Shown piece after piece: positions 11,528 through 26,835 of a stretch of DNA of 40,008 nucleotides. The stretch is taken from assembly GCA_021734345.1 (NCBI GenBank), contig JAIPJC010000016.1, positions 1-40,008 on the forward strand, read 5' to 3'. The notes under the pieces are model-generated. The model was not told the DNA's origin. It was given only the letters and a program-made list of their open reading frames with translations, and did no database searches. The position numbers were made by a program, and so were the translations under genes. The stretch is from Kiritimatiellales bacterium. Its GTDB lineage: Bacteria; Verrucomicrobiota; Kiritimatiellia; Kiritimatiellales; Pontiellaceae. Within the stretch, counting starts at the first letter, position 1; every line of letters begins with the position of its first letter.

Positions 11528-11639
11528 GTAGACGGAGCTTCCAGCTCCGTTTGGGCTGAAGACAGGATCTATTCTGTCCGTTGCAATGGTGAAATCCAAA
11601 ACACAAGCCCACCCCAATGGAGCAGGATGCTCCATCTAC
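11528..11639. repeat. BIME-like element: inverted GTAG-hairpin pair (copy A)
   Basis: A 112-bp element between the convergent stops of the MBL gene and ftsZ. It begins GTAG and ends CTAC. The left unit is GTAG followed by a perfect 7-bp stem (ACGGAGC/GCTCCGT) with loop TTCCA. The right unit, read on the minus strand, is GTAG followed by an 8-bp stem (ATGGAGCA/TGCTCCAT) with loop TCC. A third hairpin (GACAG/CTGTC) lies between, at 11561-11578. The layout equals two inverted REP units, as in RAYT-mobilised REP elements. Confidence 0.75.
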
Positions 11640-20851: not shown

Positions 20852-20960
20852 TATTGCGTATTGCGTATTGCGTATTGCGTATTGCGTATTGCGTATTGCG
20901 TCAGATCGTACTGCCCCGCGCAACCTATCAAGCAATACGTAGTACGCAATACGCAGTATG
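20852..20960. repeat. Inverted arrays of 7-bp repeats (TATTGCG family)
   Basis: Seven perfect tandem copies of TATTGCG occupy 20852-20900. After a 32-nt spacer, four related 7-mers in inverted orientation (CAATACG, TAGTACG, CAATACG, CAGTATG) occupy 20933-20960. The two arms could fold into a long hairpin. The array begins 2 nt past the mqnE-mqnC stop and ends 19 nt before the DUF2237 ATG, so it fills that intergenic gap. The units are directly tandem with no spacers, so it is not CRISPR. Confidence 0.9.
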
Positions 20961-20962
20961 CA

Positions 20963-23164
20963 TCATGCTTCGACTTCGTCGTAGACCTTGATCAGATCGT
21001 ACTGCGTGGTGCGCTGGGCAGGCACCCATCCGGCTTCGCGGATCAGGTGGATCACCAAATCCTCGTCCACCTTGTAATCCACGCCGGTTGCACTCACCAC
21101 TTCTTCGGTCATCAACACGCCGCCATAGTCGTCCGCCCCAAACTGAAGCGCGAGCTGTGACACGTCCGGCCCTTCCGTCACCCAACCGGCCTGGAGATGC
21201 GGCACGTTGTCGAGAACGATGCGCGCCATGGCAACGAGCCGGAGATAGTCGACCCCGTTCTGCAGGCGGGGGCATTCGAGATCGGTCATGTCCGGAGAAA
21301 AACTCCACGGAATGAAGGCAGTGAATCCACCGGTACGATCCTGTAAATCACGAACCTTCATAAAATGCTCAATACGCTGTTCCGTGGTTTCCCCGAAGCC
21401 ATACACCATGGTCGCGGTCGTTTTCAGGCCGATGGAATGCGCATCTTCCATCAGATCCAGCCACGCCTTGGAGCGGGTCTTTTTCGGGCTGATCCGTTTG
21501 CGGATATCATCGTTCAGAATTTCAGCCCCGCCACCGGGGAGGGATTGTAGTCCCGCATCCTTGAGACGCTGCAGACACTCCTTGATCGAGATGTGCTCCA
21601 TCTTCGCCATGAATTCGATTTCAGTCGGCGAAAGGGAATGAATCCAGATATCCACATTATCGCGGATACCGGAAAGACACGCTTCATAGTAATCCAGCTT
21701 CAGATCCGGGTGCAGTCCACCCTGAATCAGGATCTGGGTCGCGCCCGCTTCCGCCGCGGCTTTTACCTGCTCGACGATTTCCTCGGGGCTCTTTACGTAG
21801 GCATTGTCTTTTTCCTGCTTGGTATAGAACGCGCAGAATTTGCAATCCACCACGCAAACGTTGGTGGTGTTCAGATTCTTGTCGAAAACATACGTGGCCC
21901 GGTCGCCGGGAACCGCCCTGCGGCGGCAGACATCGGCCACACGGCCGAGTTCCTGGAACGGGGCTTCGTCGTAGATGATCGCAGCGTCTTCGGCATTGAT
22001 CCGCTCGCCGGCTTCGACGCGGTCAAGAATCGCTTGCCAACGAAACTTGAGACCTGAAACTTGAGACTTGAAATTATCTACTCCGCCCTCTTCCAGTTTC
22101 CAGTTTCCGGTTTCCGGTTTCAAATCTTCATAAACGCTGTTGGTCAGGATCGGGGTATGCCCGAGGTTGGCAAGGAAGTCTTCCATTTCCTGCGCGGTAA
22201 AGAATTTCTGGCTCGTTGGTGCCCCGCCTTCCTTGGCGATGCGTTCGTCGAGGCTCGTTCCGCCGATATCGTCGACCCCGCTATGGGTCAGCACGCCGAG
22301 CAGTTTTCGATCCATGTAGTTCACCAGCATGCGCACATGCGGGAAGTTGTCGCAGTAGATGCGCGACAACGCGGCCACGCGCACCTGCCGGTCGCCGGAT
22401 GGGGTATATTTCACACCGAGCGCCTTGCCGTTCGCTTGGAACGGCAACGGGATGACCGCCTGGAAACCACCGGTGACATCCTGCAACGCCCGCAAGCGGG
22501 AAAGGTGGTCGATCAAATGTTCGTCCTTTTCGATGTGGCCGAAGAGCATCGTGGCATTGGTGGGAATGCCCAGCTCATGCGCAACCTGATGTACGTCGAG
22601 CCACTGCTGGGCAAGGATCTTGGTGGTCGCGATTTTCTTGCGGACGTCCGGATGGAAGATTTCCGCGCCGCCGCCGGAGATCGAACCGAAGCCTGCCGCT
22701 TTCAGGCGAATAAGCGTTTCGCGCACCGAAATCCCGGCGTTGCCCGCGATCCAATGGATTTCCACTGCGGTCATCCCCTGTAGCAATACGCCGGGGAGCA
22801 TCTCGCGCGAAAGGGCAAAGAGCTTTTCGTAGTAGTCCAGATCCAGCTCGGGAATCATGCCGCCGACGATGTGCAGATCGGTCAGGTTCCAGTTCTGCGC
22901 CTTCTCCAGGCTCTTGCGGGCATCGTCGATCGTCGTAACATAGGCATCGGCGGCGTTGTCGGGCCGCCAGAACGAGCAGAGCTTGCACTTCACCACGCAG
23001 AGGTTGGTGGGATTGAGGTTGTGGCTGTGCACATAATAGGTCTTGCTACCATGCCGCGCCCGGCGGATTTCGTCCGCCCGCGCCATTAATTCCGCAGTCG
23101 GCATGTTCTGGAGCATATCCAATGCTTCGGCGTCTGAAATACGGGGTTGTTTGTATTCACTCAT
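20963..23164 (-). CDS. Fused aminofutalosine synthase and cyclic dehypoxanthinylfutalosine synthase (MqnE-MqnC)
   Basis: 733-residue protein with two complete radical-SAM enzymes of the futalosine route to menaquinone. The N-terminal half (about 1-345) matches MqnE: [4Fe-4S] Cys in NLCVVKCKLCSF, then LHIVGGMIPELDLDYY, GGGAEIFHPDVRKKI and TNATMLFGHIE. The C-terminal half (about 380-733) matches MqnC: NVCVVDCKFCAF, QGGLHPDLKLDYYE, IHSLSPTEIEFM, GGGAEILNDDIRKRISPKK and TMVYGFGET. Each cluster is C-X3-C-X2-C. MqnE makes aminofutalosine; MqnC later cyclises dehypoxanthinylfutalosine. The linker at about residues 347-375 is encoded by inverted 7-bp repeats. MqnA, B and D are not in the window. Confidence 0.92.
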   Translation of the reverse strand: MSEYKQPRISDAEALDMLQNMPTAELMARADEIRRARHGSKTYYVHSHNLNPTNLCVVKCKLCSFWRPDNAADAYVTTIDDARKSLEKAQNWNLTDLHIVGGMIPELDLDYYEKLFALSREMLPGVLLQGMTAVEIHWIAGNAGISVRETLIRLKAAGFGSISGGGAEIFHPDVRKKIATTKILAQQWLDVHQVAHELGIPTNATMLFGHIEKDEHLIDHLSRLRALQDVTGGFQAVIPLPFQANGKALGVKYTPSGDRQVRVAALSRIYCDNFPHVRMLVNYMDRKLLGVLTHSGVDDIGGTSLDERIAKEGGAPTSQKFFTAQEMEDFLANLGHTPILTNSVYEDLKPETGNWKLEEGGVDNFKSQVSGLKFRWQAILDRVEAGERINAEDAAIIYDEAPFQELGRVADVCRRRAVPGDRATYVFDKNLNTTNVCVVDCKFCAFYTKQEKDNAYVKSPEEIVEQVKAAAEAGATQILIQGGLHPDLKLDYYEACLSGIRDNVDIWIHSLSPTEIEFMAKMEHISIKECLQRLKDAGLQSLPGGGAEILNDDIRKRISPKKTRSKAWLDLMEDAHSIGLKTTATMVYGFGETTEQRIEHFMKVRDLQDRTGGFTAFIPWSFSPDMTDLECPRLQNGVDYLRLVAMARIVLDNVPHLQAGWVTEGPDVSQLALQFGADDYGGVLMTEEVVSATGVDYKVDEDLVIHLIREAGWVPAQRTTQYDLIKVYDEVEA
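22042..22125. repeat. Inverted arrays of 7-bp repeats inside mqnE-mqnC
   Basis: Five tandem 7-mers of the GAAACTT type fill 22042-22076 (GAAACTT, GAGACCT, GAAACTT, GAGACTT, GAAATTA). Fourteen nt later, five 7-mers of the inverted type fill 22091-22125 (TTCCAGT twice, TTCCGGT twice, TTCAAAT). The arms are partly complementary. Total length is 84 nt, a multiple of three, so the coding frame is kept; it encodes the linker between the MqnE and MqnC domains. Confidence 0.88.
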
Positions 23165-23253: not shown

Positions 23254-23314
23254 GTAGGATGCAGCTCCAGCTGCGTCCTCCTGCCGCAGGGTCGGCACTG
23301 GAGCGCCAACCTAC
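23254..23314. repeat. BIME-like 61-bp element, copy B
   Basis: A 61-bp element starting GTAG and ending CTAC. Each end, read inward, is GTAG plus an 8-bp stem with a T-G mismatch at the third pair and a TCCA loop (left GATGCAGC/GCTGCGTC; right, on minus, GTTGGCGC/GTGCCGAC). It matches copy C at 58 of 61 positions. It lies 9 nt beyond the stop of the Fic-like fragment. Confidence 0.85.
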
Positions 23315-23323
23315 TCCACCGCA

Positions 23324-23653
23324 TTACTTTTTCGCCAGCAGTCGCTTTCCCTTTTCAGTCAGGAAATACTTCTGGGTCGGACTTCTCGGCGAGTCCGGCG
23401 CGGTCATCTCAATCAGACCGGCTTCCAAAGCAGGATGTAGATAGTTTTTCCTGAACGTGGGCCGGTGGCTCAAATTCAGCTTGCCCATCAGCTCAGCCGC
23501 CGATAACCGACTCAGCGCAACGGCCTGGACGAGCCGTTTTACTTGGTCGGTTACTTGGTCGCCTACTTGGTCGGTCAGAATCGTTTCCAAAATCACCTGC
23601 AGCATAAATTCGATAAACGGTGCGCAGTTGTTTTTGGCATTGCCTACGCCCAA
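23324..23653 (-). pseudogene. Fic-family-like C-terminal fragment
   Basis: An open frame of about 109 residues from a TTG. The sequence APFIEFMLQVILETI, then repeated DQVGDQVTDQVKRL, then LSAAELMGKLNLSHRPTFRKNYLHPALEAGLIEM resembles the C-terminal winged-helix end of Fic-domain proteins. It also occurs on some AlbA_2/COG2865 regulators. The catalytic Fic motif (HPFxxGNGR) is absent, and nothing upstream in frame supplies it, because the frame meets the end of the neighbouring gene. I read it as a truncated remnant. It could instead be a small DNA-binding protein that is still expressed. Confidence 0.5.
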
Positions 23654-25100
23654 AGGGGTACATATTCGGCAAACTTTTTTGATTTGTTGTTCGGGTCGGC
23701 AGCTTTGATCAATTTGGCGTCAATAGCTTCCTGAATAAGTACCGAAACCATCGAGCGCTGCTTCTCCGACATTTTCAATCTCTCCCGCAGAGATTTGTTC
23801 GTCATCGCGCTGTCGGAGTAATATTTCAATACAGCATGCTGGTAGCACGCTTCCAAACGTTCTTGGGCGGACATTCGCGCGAAAGTGCGAGGCGTAAACA
23901 ACGTGACTTTAAAGTGGTTCGGCCCCGCAGTGAACTCTATTGGTGGCAACCCATAAAGCTCCACCTGCAATCCCGCCTTGAGCAGTCCCGATCCGCGTTC
24001 TTCACAGATTTTATAGCGACGGAAAGTGCGGGCCAGTTGTTCATTCCTCGATTCTGGTTGCGTACCGATGAGCCGGTCCAGCCGTTTGGATGGCAACAAA
24101 CCACCAGGATTCGAGACTTCAATCCGGTCATCGAAAATTTCAATAAGTGGCCCAGCTCCGGAGATTGAAAAATCCTGGTGAATCAAAGCATTTGCAACGA
24201 TTTCGCGTAGGGCTATTTCAGGATAAACTGTTCGTTTTGTCCTCTGAGCATTTTCGATAACCTCGCTTTGAGGAAGCAGTGACATGATGTACACCATCAG
24301 CCCCTGGAAACTGATCGCATAACCCTTCGCTCCTTCCTTTTCTTGCTTGGTATTCGCTTTGTTTAACCCGTCATAGACTACCACGCGTACCGCTTTGCGA
24401 CTGAGTTCCGGGAAATCCGCAAGTTTTCGTGCCGCCGCGATGGCTCCGAGATTTGTCACATAGCCGCCCCCGGCCGGTTCGCGGATAATGAAACGCTCGC
24501 CCGCCATCCACTCCAGTGTTTCTTCCTCCGTAGTGGTGACCGGTCGTTCAAGCATCTTGAATATTGGTTCGATGCTAAGGAAGGTTGTAAACATCGAGTC
24601 TTCCACCAAGACAGATGAGTGCAGGTCTTCCCAACGCGGTGTCCGGCTGTTCAACATCAGCGTTCCCACTTCTTGCCTGGATGCTTTCCGCGTCGTACCA
24701 CTTGAACGGATAAACGCATCCTCCAAGCTCTTCCCTCGTAAATGGACCGGCTTTACCAAAGCCTCTGGCACATGTACGAAAAGCAACCGGGAGACTTGTG
24801 TTCCGCCACAGCGTGATCGAGCGCCACTGGCGGCTCGAGGCCAGATCGTCCGAGGTTGGCTAGATGGCTCACCGTCTTTTCAACCATTTCCTCATCCACA
24901 CTGGAGGGCGTACCGTCCGAATGCATCCCGAAAACCAAATAACCGCCACCCGGCTGATTGGCAAATGCCGACAAATGCTCGGTCAGTCGCTTCTTATCCG
25001 GCGATAACGCTGCCTTCCAGTCCAGCTCGTTCAATTCATGCTTCGGCGGCTCAAGGCTCGCCTGAAGCAACCCCAGTGCTTTTGAAATCCATTTCTTCAT
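23644..25100 (-). pseudogene. AlbA_2/COG2865 ATP-binding regulator, frameshifted
   Basis: Two adjacent frames together make one protein of about 480 residues. The first (25100 to about 24790) carries the AlbA_2 (Schlafen-like) start: HELNELDWKAALSPD, then LSAFANQPGGGYLVFGM. The second (about 24786 to 23644) continues LLFVHVPEALVKPVHLRGK and carries the HATPase_c_4/RecG-like region EIALREIVANALIHQDFS, with SNPGGLLPS and EERGSGLLKA. A C-terminal winged helix follows. The switch of frame falls at about 24785-24800, in a CCC run, and fits loss of one base. Family members are predicted transcription regulators or accessory defence proteins. A sequencing error is possible. Confidence 0.8.
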
Positions 25101-25560
25101 AGGTTCCGTTTTCTACTCAAATAAGAAGTTGTTGTAAATGCGTCACTTGCGTTATTTGTCCGCCATCTTCACAAATAACCCCGATTCTGCAACTAGCCCT
25201 CACTTCCTCTTCCCTAGGAGAGGATTGCCGCGAGCAATGTCCCAGCCAAACTTTGCAAACAACCCGATGACAGGCGACTCAACCAATTGATCTTCTGTAT
25301 GATGTGGGGCATATGCTCAACCGTTCCTGTAAATCCAATCCAGCGCCTTCTCCGGACGCAGGAGCAATTCCAGATCAGAAATCGGAAGCGAAGGGGCAAT
25401 CCGATCATAGAATTCTTTCCTTTATGCGACCGGAACGCTCCCGACGAAGGATCCAGTGTCACAGATCTGCATAAGATTCGAAAATTTCGCCGGAGGTTAA
25501 ATCCCTACCTGCAAGCCGTCAAACCAATACAGGCATGATCGGGAAAACAACTCCCCCGCG
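25101..25560. other. Intergenic stretch without recognised genes
   Basis: About 460 bp between the frameshifted AlbA_2 gene and copy C of the 61-bp repeat. Two overlapping frames of about 80 codons exist on opposite strands (25214-25462 minus; 25287-25538 plus). Neither resembles a known protein, and base composition looks lower in GC than the flanking core genes. I see no tRNA, terminator or repeat in it. It may be eroded accessory DNA. Confidence 0.5.
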
Positions 25561-25621
25561 GTAGGATGCAGTTCCAGCTGCGTCCCCCTGCCGCAGGGTC
25601 GGCACTGGAGTGCCAACCTAC
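25561..25621. repeat. BIME-like 61-bp element, copy C
   Basis: Same orientation and length as copy B, with three substitutions. Its last four bases (CTAC) overlap the end of the helicase gene, so the helicase stop codon (TAG on the minus strand) lies inside the repeat end. Confidence 0.85.
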
Positions 25622-26754
25622 TCCTCGGCAGCGAAGATCTGGCCTTCGCGGATGGTGGCGGCGACCAGCTGGATGCCGAGTTCGGTTTCGTAGCGGCGGG
25701 CGAGGCGGATTTCCTGCTCGGTCAACAGCGAGATGGCGTAGCCTTGCTCCCCTGCCCGGCCGGTGCGGCCGGTGCGGTGGAGGTAGTCTTTGCTGCTCGA
25801 CGGTGCGTCGTAGTTGAAGATGTGCGTGACGCCTTTGATGTCGAGTCCGCGCGCGGCGACGTCGGACGCGATGAGGATGTTCACTCTCCCGCTGCGAAAA
25901 TCGTTCATGGCCTTGGTTCGTTCCAGCTTCCCGTGCGTGGCGTGGATGTCGACGACGGGAATGGAGTAGTTCCCCATCTTGGCCTTCACCAGTTCGGCAT
26001 CCTTGTTGCGGTGGACAAATACGATGGCGCGCTCGGGTTCAATGGCGCGGATGAGCCGACGCAGCAGATCGGCCTTGCTGCGTTCCTCGCCGACAAAATA
26101 GAGATGCTGGATGTCGGCGTTGACCTGATTGGCTCCGGCGGATAGGCGCACGAGTTCCGGCGCGAGCTTCTGTGCTTCAGCCGAGCTGGCGGACTGCTCC
26201 GTGGCGGATACAAACACCAGTTGCGGACGATCAGGCAGCGTACGCAGAATATCACGGATGACGGCGAGGCTTTCGCCAAACAAGACCCGGTCGGCTTCGT
26301 CGATCACCACGGTTCCAACCTTTGGAACCTTCAGTTTTTTCATGCCGATGAGTTCAAGGATGCGCCCGGCGGAGCCGACGATGAGCTGCGGCTTTTTCTT
26401 CAGCTTGTCGAGCTGCCGCTGCGTGTTGGCACCGCCGATGAGCAGGAGCGACTTGATTGGAAGTCCTGAATTTTGCGCCAGCAGCAGCGCCTGCTGATGG
26501 ATCTGGGAGGCGAGCTCATGGGTCGGCGCGAGGATGATGGCCTGCGCATTGGGGACCGCCGGGTCGATTTTTCCGAAGATGGGAAGCAGGTAGGCCAGCG
26601 TCTTGCCGGTACCGGTCTCGGCGGACACATAGGCATCCTTCCCGGCGATCAACGCGGGCATGGCTTCGGTCTGGATCGGCATTGGCTCTTTGATGCCTTC
26701 CTTTTCCAAGGCCTGAACCAACGCGGCGGATATTCCGAGGTCTGTAAAATTCAT
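25618..26754 (-). CDS. DEAD-box RNA helicase
   Basis: 378-residue ATP-dependent RNA helicase. The Q motif is GIKEPMPIQTEAMPALIAG, motif I AETGTGKT, Ia APTHELA, Ib SAGRILEL, II DEAD in VVIDEADRVLFGE, III SAT, and the second RecA domain has SDVAARGLDIKGV and HRTGRTGRAG. All catalytic motifs are intact. No C-terminal RNA-binding extension is present, so this is a minimal core enzyme of the RhlE/CsdA type. It likely acts in ribosome assembly or mRNA turnover. The start is MNFTDLGIS at 26754; the longer frame lacks support. Confidence 0.93.
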   Translation of the reverse strand: MNFTDLGISAALVQALEKEGIKEPMPIQTEAMPALIAGKDAYVSAETGTGKTLAYLLPIFGKIDPAVPNAQAIILAPTHELASQIHQQALLLAQNSGLPIKSLLLIGGANTQRQLDKLKKKPQLIVGSAGRILELIGMKKLKVPKVGTVVIDEADRVLFGESLAVIRDILRTLPDRPQLVFVSATEQSASSAEAQKLAPELVRLSAGANQVNADIQHLYFVGEERSKADLLRRLIRAIEPERAIVFVHRNKDAELVKAKMGNYSIPVVDIHATHGKLERTKAMNDFRSGRVNILIASDVAARGLDIKGVTHIFNYDAPSSSKDYLHRTGRTGRAGEQGYAISLLTEQEIRLARRYETELGIQLVAATIREGQIFAAEE

Positions 26755-26835
26755 AACTGGCAGGTCTTTTTTTGACGGGATTAACAAGATCGACAGGGTA
26801 CCCCTCAAACAAATCCGGTCAATCCTGTTTAAACT

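Follow-up and report, generated by a model that had tools for sequence, protein, structure and literature searches.

The 40,008-nucleotide stretch of DNA analysed here, termed the window, is the entire contig C15 of a draft genome of Pontiella type, within Kiritimatiellota. It contains two copies of a short repeat, family A, each made of two inverted units in which GTAG lies 5′ of a short imperfect palindrome, a layout present in 4/4 window arms (Table 1). The two copies are identical at 58 of 61 positions (95%). In the copy at 23254, the first arm reads GTAG-GATGCAGC-TCCA-GCTGCGTC and the inverted arm GTAG-GTTGGCGC-TCCA-GTGCCGAC; in the copy at 25561, the corresponding arms read GTAG-GATGCAGT-TCCA-GCTGCGTC and GTAG-GTTGGCAC-TCCA-GTGCCGAC. 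All four arms have T-G at the third stem pair. An earlier note, made from the sequence alone, had claimed paired inverted GTAG hairpins with 58/61 identity at 23254-23314 and 25561-25621, with a T-G mismatch at the same pair, a TCCA loop in each arm, and differing stems. All of these claims held, including the coordinates.

Two other features of the window were noted. The gene between the two copies has SLFN/AlbA_2, RecG-like HATPase_c_4, and Fic-like C-terminal parts and is broken over three open reading frames (ORFs), so it is either frameshifted or affected by assembly errors. TGCGTAT heptamers form an array next to the end of a radical-SAM gene, and an inverted counterpart lies 32-46 bp away.

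Table 1. Features of the window and of the locus encoding the presumed cognate transposase, RAYT A (window positions unless locus L023 is named).
Feature	Coordinates	Strand	Basis or remark
Family-B REPIN	11528-11639	.	Between metallo-beta-lactamase-fold gene and ftsZ
Family-B unit 1	11528-11550	+	GTAG-ACGGAGCT-TCC-AGCTCCGT
Family-B unit 2	11617-11639	-	GTAG-ATGGAGCA-TCC-TGCTCCAT
TGCGTAT heptamer array	20855-20962		Adjoins radical-SAM gene end
Radical-SAM gene	20963-23164		
Family-A REPIN copy 1	23254-23314	.	Sequence, repeats, covariation, inverted partner
Copy 1 REP units	23254-23277; 23291-23314	+; -	Inverted, spacer 13 nt
SLFN/AlbA_2 gene	23324-25102	-	ORFs, Pfam
Family-A REPIN copy 2	25561-25621	.	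Sequence, repeats, covariation, inverted partner
Copy 2 REP units	25561-25584; 25598-25621	+; -	Inverted
DEAD-box helicase ORF	25618-26808	-	ORF, Pfam; TAG stop 25620-25618 inside copy 2 GTAG
REPINs around RAYT A	L023: 1002-1063; 1788-1849		
RAYT A gene (225 aa)	L023: 1114-1791; G000:C14:29882-30556		

Family A is repeated far above chance in its own genome. The sequence GTAGNNTGNNNNTCCANNNNCG has 30 exact matches in the 3.25 Mb genome compared to 0 for the reversed control. With up to 1 mismatch there are 62 matches compared to 8 for the control, and many of the extras belong to a second family. The window copies are two among 13 BLAST matches in this genome, and de-duplication leaves a family-A total of 35 units in a draft assembly that is 85% complete. 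Of these units, 32 have an inverted partner, forming elements that are mostly 57-64 bp long, and many lie near gene ends. Over the 28 distinct units, 97.8% of stem cells are paired, and changes on both sides of a stem pair occupy 48 cells compared to 14.0 +/- 3.4 after shuffling, with 0/500 shuffles as high. These double changes occur in 6 of the 8 stem pairs, while the T-G pair is invariant. Stem covariation is thus strong, and the earlier claim that the fold itself is recognised, given its conserved structure and varied sequence, is supported to that extent; recognition is inferred. An Rfam search gave no match.

The genome contains 13 Y1_Tnp matches, one of which, termed RAYT A, sits between family-A REPINs on contig C14. 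Its stop codon is the TAG of the downstream REPIN's GTAG. RAYT A matches Y1_Tnp with an E-value of 4.6e-6 and, as its sole NCBIfam family, NF047646 (REP_Tyr_transpos) with an E-value of 7.7e-18. The latter match scores 64.8 bits against a curated cut-off of 80, which is a score threshold and not a biological trait. The HUH motif and the catalytic tyrosine align within a single Y1 domain. A PDB sequence search with RAYT A gave no match. An orthologue from G023, a genome of the same genus as the window genome, is 76% identical and has the same layout with flanking family-A hairpins. Its AlphaFold model (pLDDT 86) predicts a RAYT fold; the top Foldseek PDB match is 4er8, a RAYT with its REP hairpin (E 6.9e-7), followed by IS200/IS605 TnpA. 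The closest named relative of RAYT A comes from a metagenome-assembled genome labelled Pontiella desulfatans, and Pontiella is a member of Kiritimatiellota. Distant standalone relatives have other hairpins in the equivalent place, such as GTAG-AACGGTCC-TCC-GGGCCGTT, as would be expected if each RAYT co-evolves with its own REP.

GTAG REPs, their REPIN pairs, and the RAYT (TnpA_REP) transposases with which they form REPtrons have been described (PMC2817692, PMC3116915, PMC3733652, PMC8266576). The window elements are very likely REPINs, in which two GTAG-tagged REP hairpins form a non-autonomous pair. The enzyme that most likely spreads them in trans is RAYT A, as their cognate transposase. Repetition, inverted pairing, covariation, a RAYT flanked by the same REPINs, and conserved catalytic residues are all established here, while binding, cleavage, and mobilisation of REPs by RAYT A are inferred. 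By analogy with TnpA_REP, RAYT A would bind one strand of the folded REP hairpin; nicking by its HUH/Tyr centre would then be followed by joining to a single-stranded site elsewhere. Several points count against this explanation. REP copies usually number over 100 (PMC2817692), and about 35 units is modest, though many REP families hold 20-100 units (PMC3733652). The RAYT A score falls short of the curated NCBIfam cut-off. Sister genomes, among them G001, G002, and G016, contain a few family-A-like units, although the nearest RAYT in these genomes resembles RAYT A only distantly.

An alternative is that the repeats are MITEs of another transposon and adjoin RAYT A by chance. Short inverted-repeat elements are common in bacteria, and the genome has other Y1_Tnp genes. 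However, REPINs occur on both sides of RAYT A in two species, and its relatives carry their own different hairpins in the same place, so this alternative is most improbable. The REPIN reading also agrees with the earlier note, which had likened the elements to the REP/BIME repeats of RAYT (Y1) transposases and had named few or no further copies, no RAYT gene, and no covariation as grounds for refutation. All three came out in its favour: copies are many, RAYT A is flanked by the same elements, and the covariation far exceeds shuffled expectation. Its remark that it knew of no described REP family in this bacterial group needs correction. GTAG REPs have been published for the PVC group, in planctomycetes and the verrucomicrobium Opitutus terrae, and in-frame REPs in PVC genes are likewise on record, as are REP-supplied TAG stops, including in O. 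terrae (PMC3733652). No paper on GTAG REPs in Kiritimatiellota was found in the open-access literature searched.

A mapping of the repeats onto stop codons had also been proposed, and the link is real. Among family-A units, 14/35 have a GTAG that ends a frame of 100 codons or more, compared to 73/581 other GTAGs (12.6%; Fisher p 9e-5). That GTAG REPs supply TAG stops is a published property (PMC3733652); what is new is the behaviour of orthologues and the evidence from an empty site. Helicase orthologues without a REPIN stop at the equivalent codon, and REPIN-less orthologues of trpG, a radical-SAM gene, and accA stop at the identical codon, often a native G-TAG. Stop positions are thus unchanged at REPINs, and the possibility that a REPIN shortens the gene by bringing in a stop of its own was rejected. 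The empty trpG allele of genome G003 reads CTGTAG-CG-GTCAGTTCCGATA, while the occupied allele of the window genome reads CTGTAG-[46 nt]-GTCAGTTCCGATA. From this comparison it is inferred that insertion occurs immediately 3′ of GTAG without duplication. The inference rests on trpG only, the one site resolved at both junctions, where the empty allele carries 2 additional bases. Insertion 3′ of GTAG would explain why REPINs are so often found at a native G-TAG stop, the helicase gene next to copy 2 being one example, and would give a simple account of the known habit of REPs of supplying stops; GTAG as the target remains inferred.

The position of many units next to gene ends raises the question of whether the hairpins are instead non-mobile host elements, such as terminators or stabilisers of mRNA 3′ ends, kept for their function. 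Such roles have been assigned to REPs elsewhere (PMC3733652). Several features speak against this: GTAG and the T-G pair are invariant, the units pair in inverted orientation and also flank a transposase, trpG has an empty allele, and REPs lie in frame within coding regions in the sister families. In addition, sequence inspection found no run of T after the family-A copies in the window. The host-element explanation is therefore very unlikely, and mobile REPINs are preferred.

The window also contains a REPIN of a second family, B, whose unit GTAG-ACGGAGCT-TCC-AGCTCCGT has 47 matches with up to 3 mismatches compared to 0 for the control. Its plus-strand unit is identical to the REPs that flank a RAYT nested in priA on contig C120. 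There, a single 1043-codon frame encodes the PriA 3′-binding domain, a REPIN, the RAYT, another REPIN, and the PriA helicase, and the REPs are translated as VDGASSSV and, reversed, as NGAGSSVY.

RAYTs of this kind occur in 105/346 genomes of the class. A total of 78 long frames were retrieved, of which 58 have at least 100 host residues on both sides by our own count. The hosts within the class are PriA (17), a B12-radical-SAM protein (10, at two sites), XseA (9), Cca (9), a type IIG methylase (5), and further proteins including HypF, a Mur ligase, an MVD-like decarboxylase, UxaC, HsdR, and MmeI. Outside the class they include LeuRS, ValRS, CarB, IspG, and MgsA, with in-frame RAYTs in leuS, valS, carB, and ispG elsewhere in the phylum. 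In priA, xseA, cca, and a radical-SAM gene, nested RAYTs are found repeatedly at fixed positions, and the host domains are complete on either side. In XseA, residues 8-194 and 198-442 of the solved chain 8txr align on either side of a 236-residue insert, which matches TnpA_REP 4er8.

In relatives, PriA, XseA, and Cca are encoded by frames of the usual length without an insert, and some sites hold a REPIN only (L272, L273, L278, L283); together with the full alleles, these represent three allele states. RAYT clustering follows the host gene, with one clade for XseA, one for Cca, and two for PriA. The HypF copy falls inside the radical-SAM clade and its REP peptides are of the same kind, so a whole REPtron appears to have jumped between host genes. 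A single ancestral insertion for all nested RAYTs was rejected on the basis of the two PriA clades, the two radical-SAM sites, and the placement of HypF. Among aligned RAYTs, HUH is retained in 88/88 and the tyrosine in 86/88, and the nested RAYT part has a dN/dS of 0.05-0.16 where computable. Catalytic residues are thus conserved and selection is purifying; activity is inferred only.

It could be argued that nested RAYTs are assembly errors, misread frames, or decaying fusions. Most of the genomes are drafts, one nested RAYT (L233) lacks the tyrosine, and an earlier survey dropped long proteins as fusions or annotation errors (PMC6006769). However, identical in-frame junctions recur in many species, including the few-contig assemblies G021 and G030, and the complete host domains, low dN/dS, and retained HUH and tyrosine residues also speak against error or decay. 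This explanation is very hard to sustain, and long transposase “fusions” of the kind dropped in that survey can be real.

A bolder reading, toward which the evidence tilts without settling the matter, is that REPtrons of Kiritimatiellota and others in the phylum persist in frame in essential genes (priA, xseA, cca, leuS, valS, carB, ispG). The host enzyme and a catalytically intact transposase domain would form one polypeptide, with the domain in a tolerant loop spreading REPINs in trans. This would be an intein-like niche without splicing, in which deletion of the parasite risks death of the host. In the mechanism judged most likely overall, the RAYT is supplied by its own gene (A) or, as inferred for B, as a domain of a housekeeping protein, and acts in trans on folded single-stranded REP hairpins to insert REPINs at GTAG. 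Insertions would survive where they fall between genes or at a stop codon, or where a tolerant loop accepts them in frame, and a REPtron in frame in an essential gene would then be hard to delete. Anatomy, pairing, conservation, and allele states have been demonstrated, while catalysis, target choice, fused translation, and any advantage are inferred.

It is also possible that the nested transposase is released as a separate protein by splicing, cleavage, or an internal start, rather than remaining part of the host enzyme. Fixed sites in essential genes and empty alleles resemble inteins, and a GTG or TTG lies within 40 codons upstream in 56/73 nested RAYTs. Against release, an ATG is near in only 25/73, with no conserved internal ATG seen, and Pfam reported no intein Hint domain between the host domains of the nested proteins scanned; inteins were rejected on this last basis. 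The single-polypeptide reading is preferred.

Compared to known REPtrons, the present system shares the GTAG foot, short stem-loop, inverted pairs, a RAYT flanked by the same repeats, and the HUH/Tyr centre. It differs in its new Kiritimatiellota repeat families, in the evidence from an empty site that insertion takes place 3′ of a native GTAG, and in the entire RAYT gene that sister lineages carry in frame inside essential genes. Family A is thus a new representative of the known GTAG REP/RAYT type, and the whole RAYT genes nested in frame are the new part; no paper on these was found in the open-access PMC literature searched. Rickettsia palindromic elements also lie in frame in functional protein genes, but they are CGTC-type repeats without a transposase gene flanked by them (PMC3733652), whereas here the host gene encloses both the repeats and, between them, the transposase gene. 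Inteins with homing endonucleases place a selfish nuclease gene, in frame, at sites that are conserved in essential genes, and relatives carry empty alleles. Nested RAYTs share these traits, but no splicing domain was found in those scanned, they are flanked by REPINs, and they encode an HUH transposase and not a homing endonuclease. The single-domain Y1 HUH fold is shared with IS200/IS605 elements (IS608, ISDra2), as judged by fold match. IS200/IS605 elements have subterminal hairpins and insert 3′ of a short sequence, traits held in common with the present system, where the latter is inferred (see also PMC8266576). NCBIfam and the best fold match place the present transposases on the RAYT branch, and REPINs are non-autonomous pairs dispersed without the gene.

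How RAYTs and REPIN populations last in genomes with no obvious gain for the host has yet to be explained. Whole REPtrons lie in frame in essential enzymes, sister species hold empty, REPIN-only, or full alleles, and one REPtron seems to have jumped from one host gene to another. Together these findings provide a concrete, testable answer, namely shelter in genes that the cell cannot lose.

Several further observations concern in-frame RAYTs. In PriA and XseA, the nested RAYT part often has a dS roughly double that of the surrounding host gene; this is unexplained and may reflect codon bias, replacement, or exchange between copies. The bases that precede the hairpin vary with RAYT clade, being GTAG in PriA and XseA, GTAC or GTAT in radical-SAM and HypF, and TGTG in Cca (flanks of L185, L198, L221, and L229). 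On contig C50 of the window genome, a 470-codon frame (L015) runs from a ThiD-like kinase into a Y1_Tnp domain, placing an in-frame transposase at the 3′ end of a gene. A standalone RAYT gene of G016 (L061) contains REP-like hairpins of its own family in frame within its own coding sequence. Finally, in G020 (L216) two nested-type RAYTs lie adjacent in two radical-SAM-like frames, and the radical-SAM host has two alternative sites.
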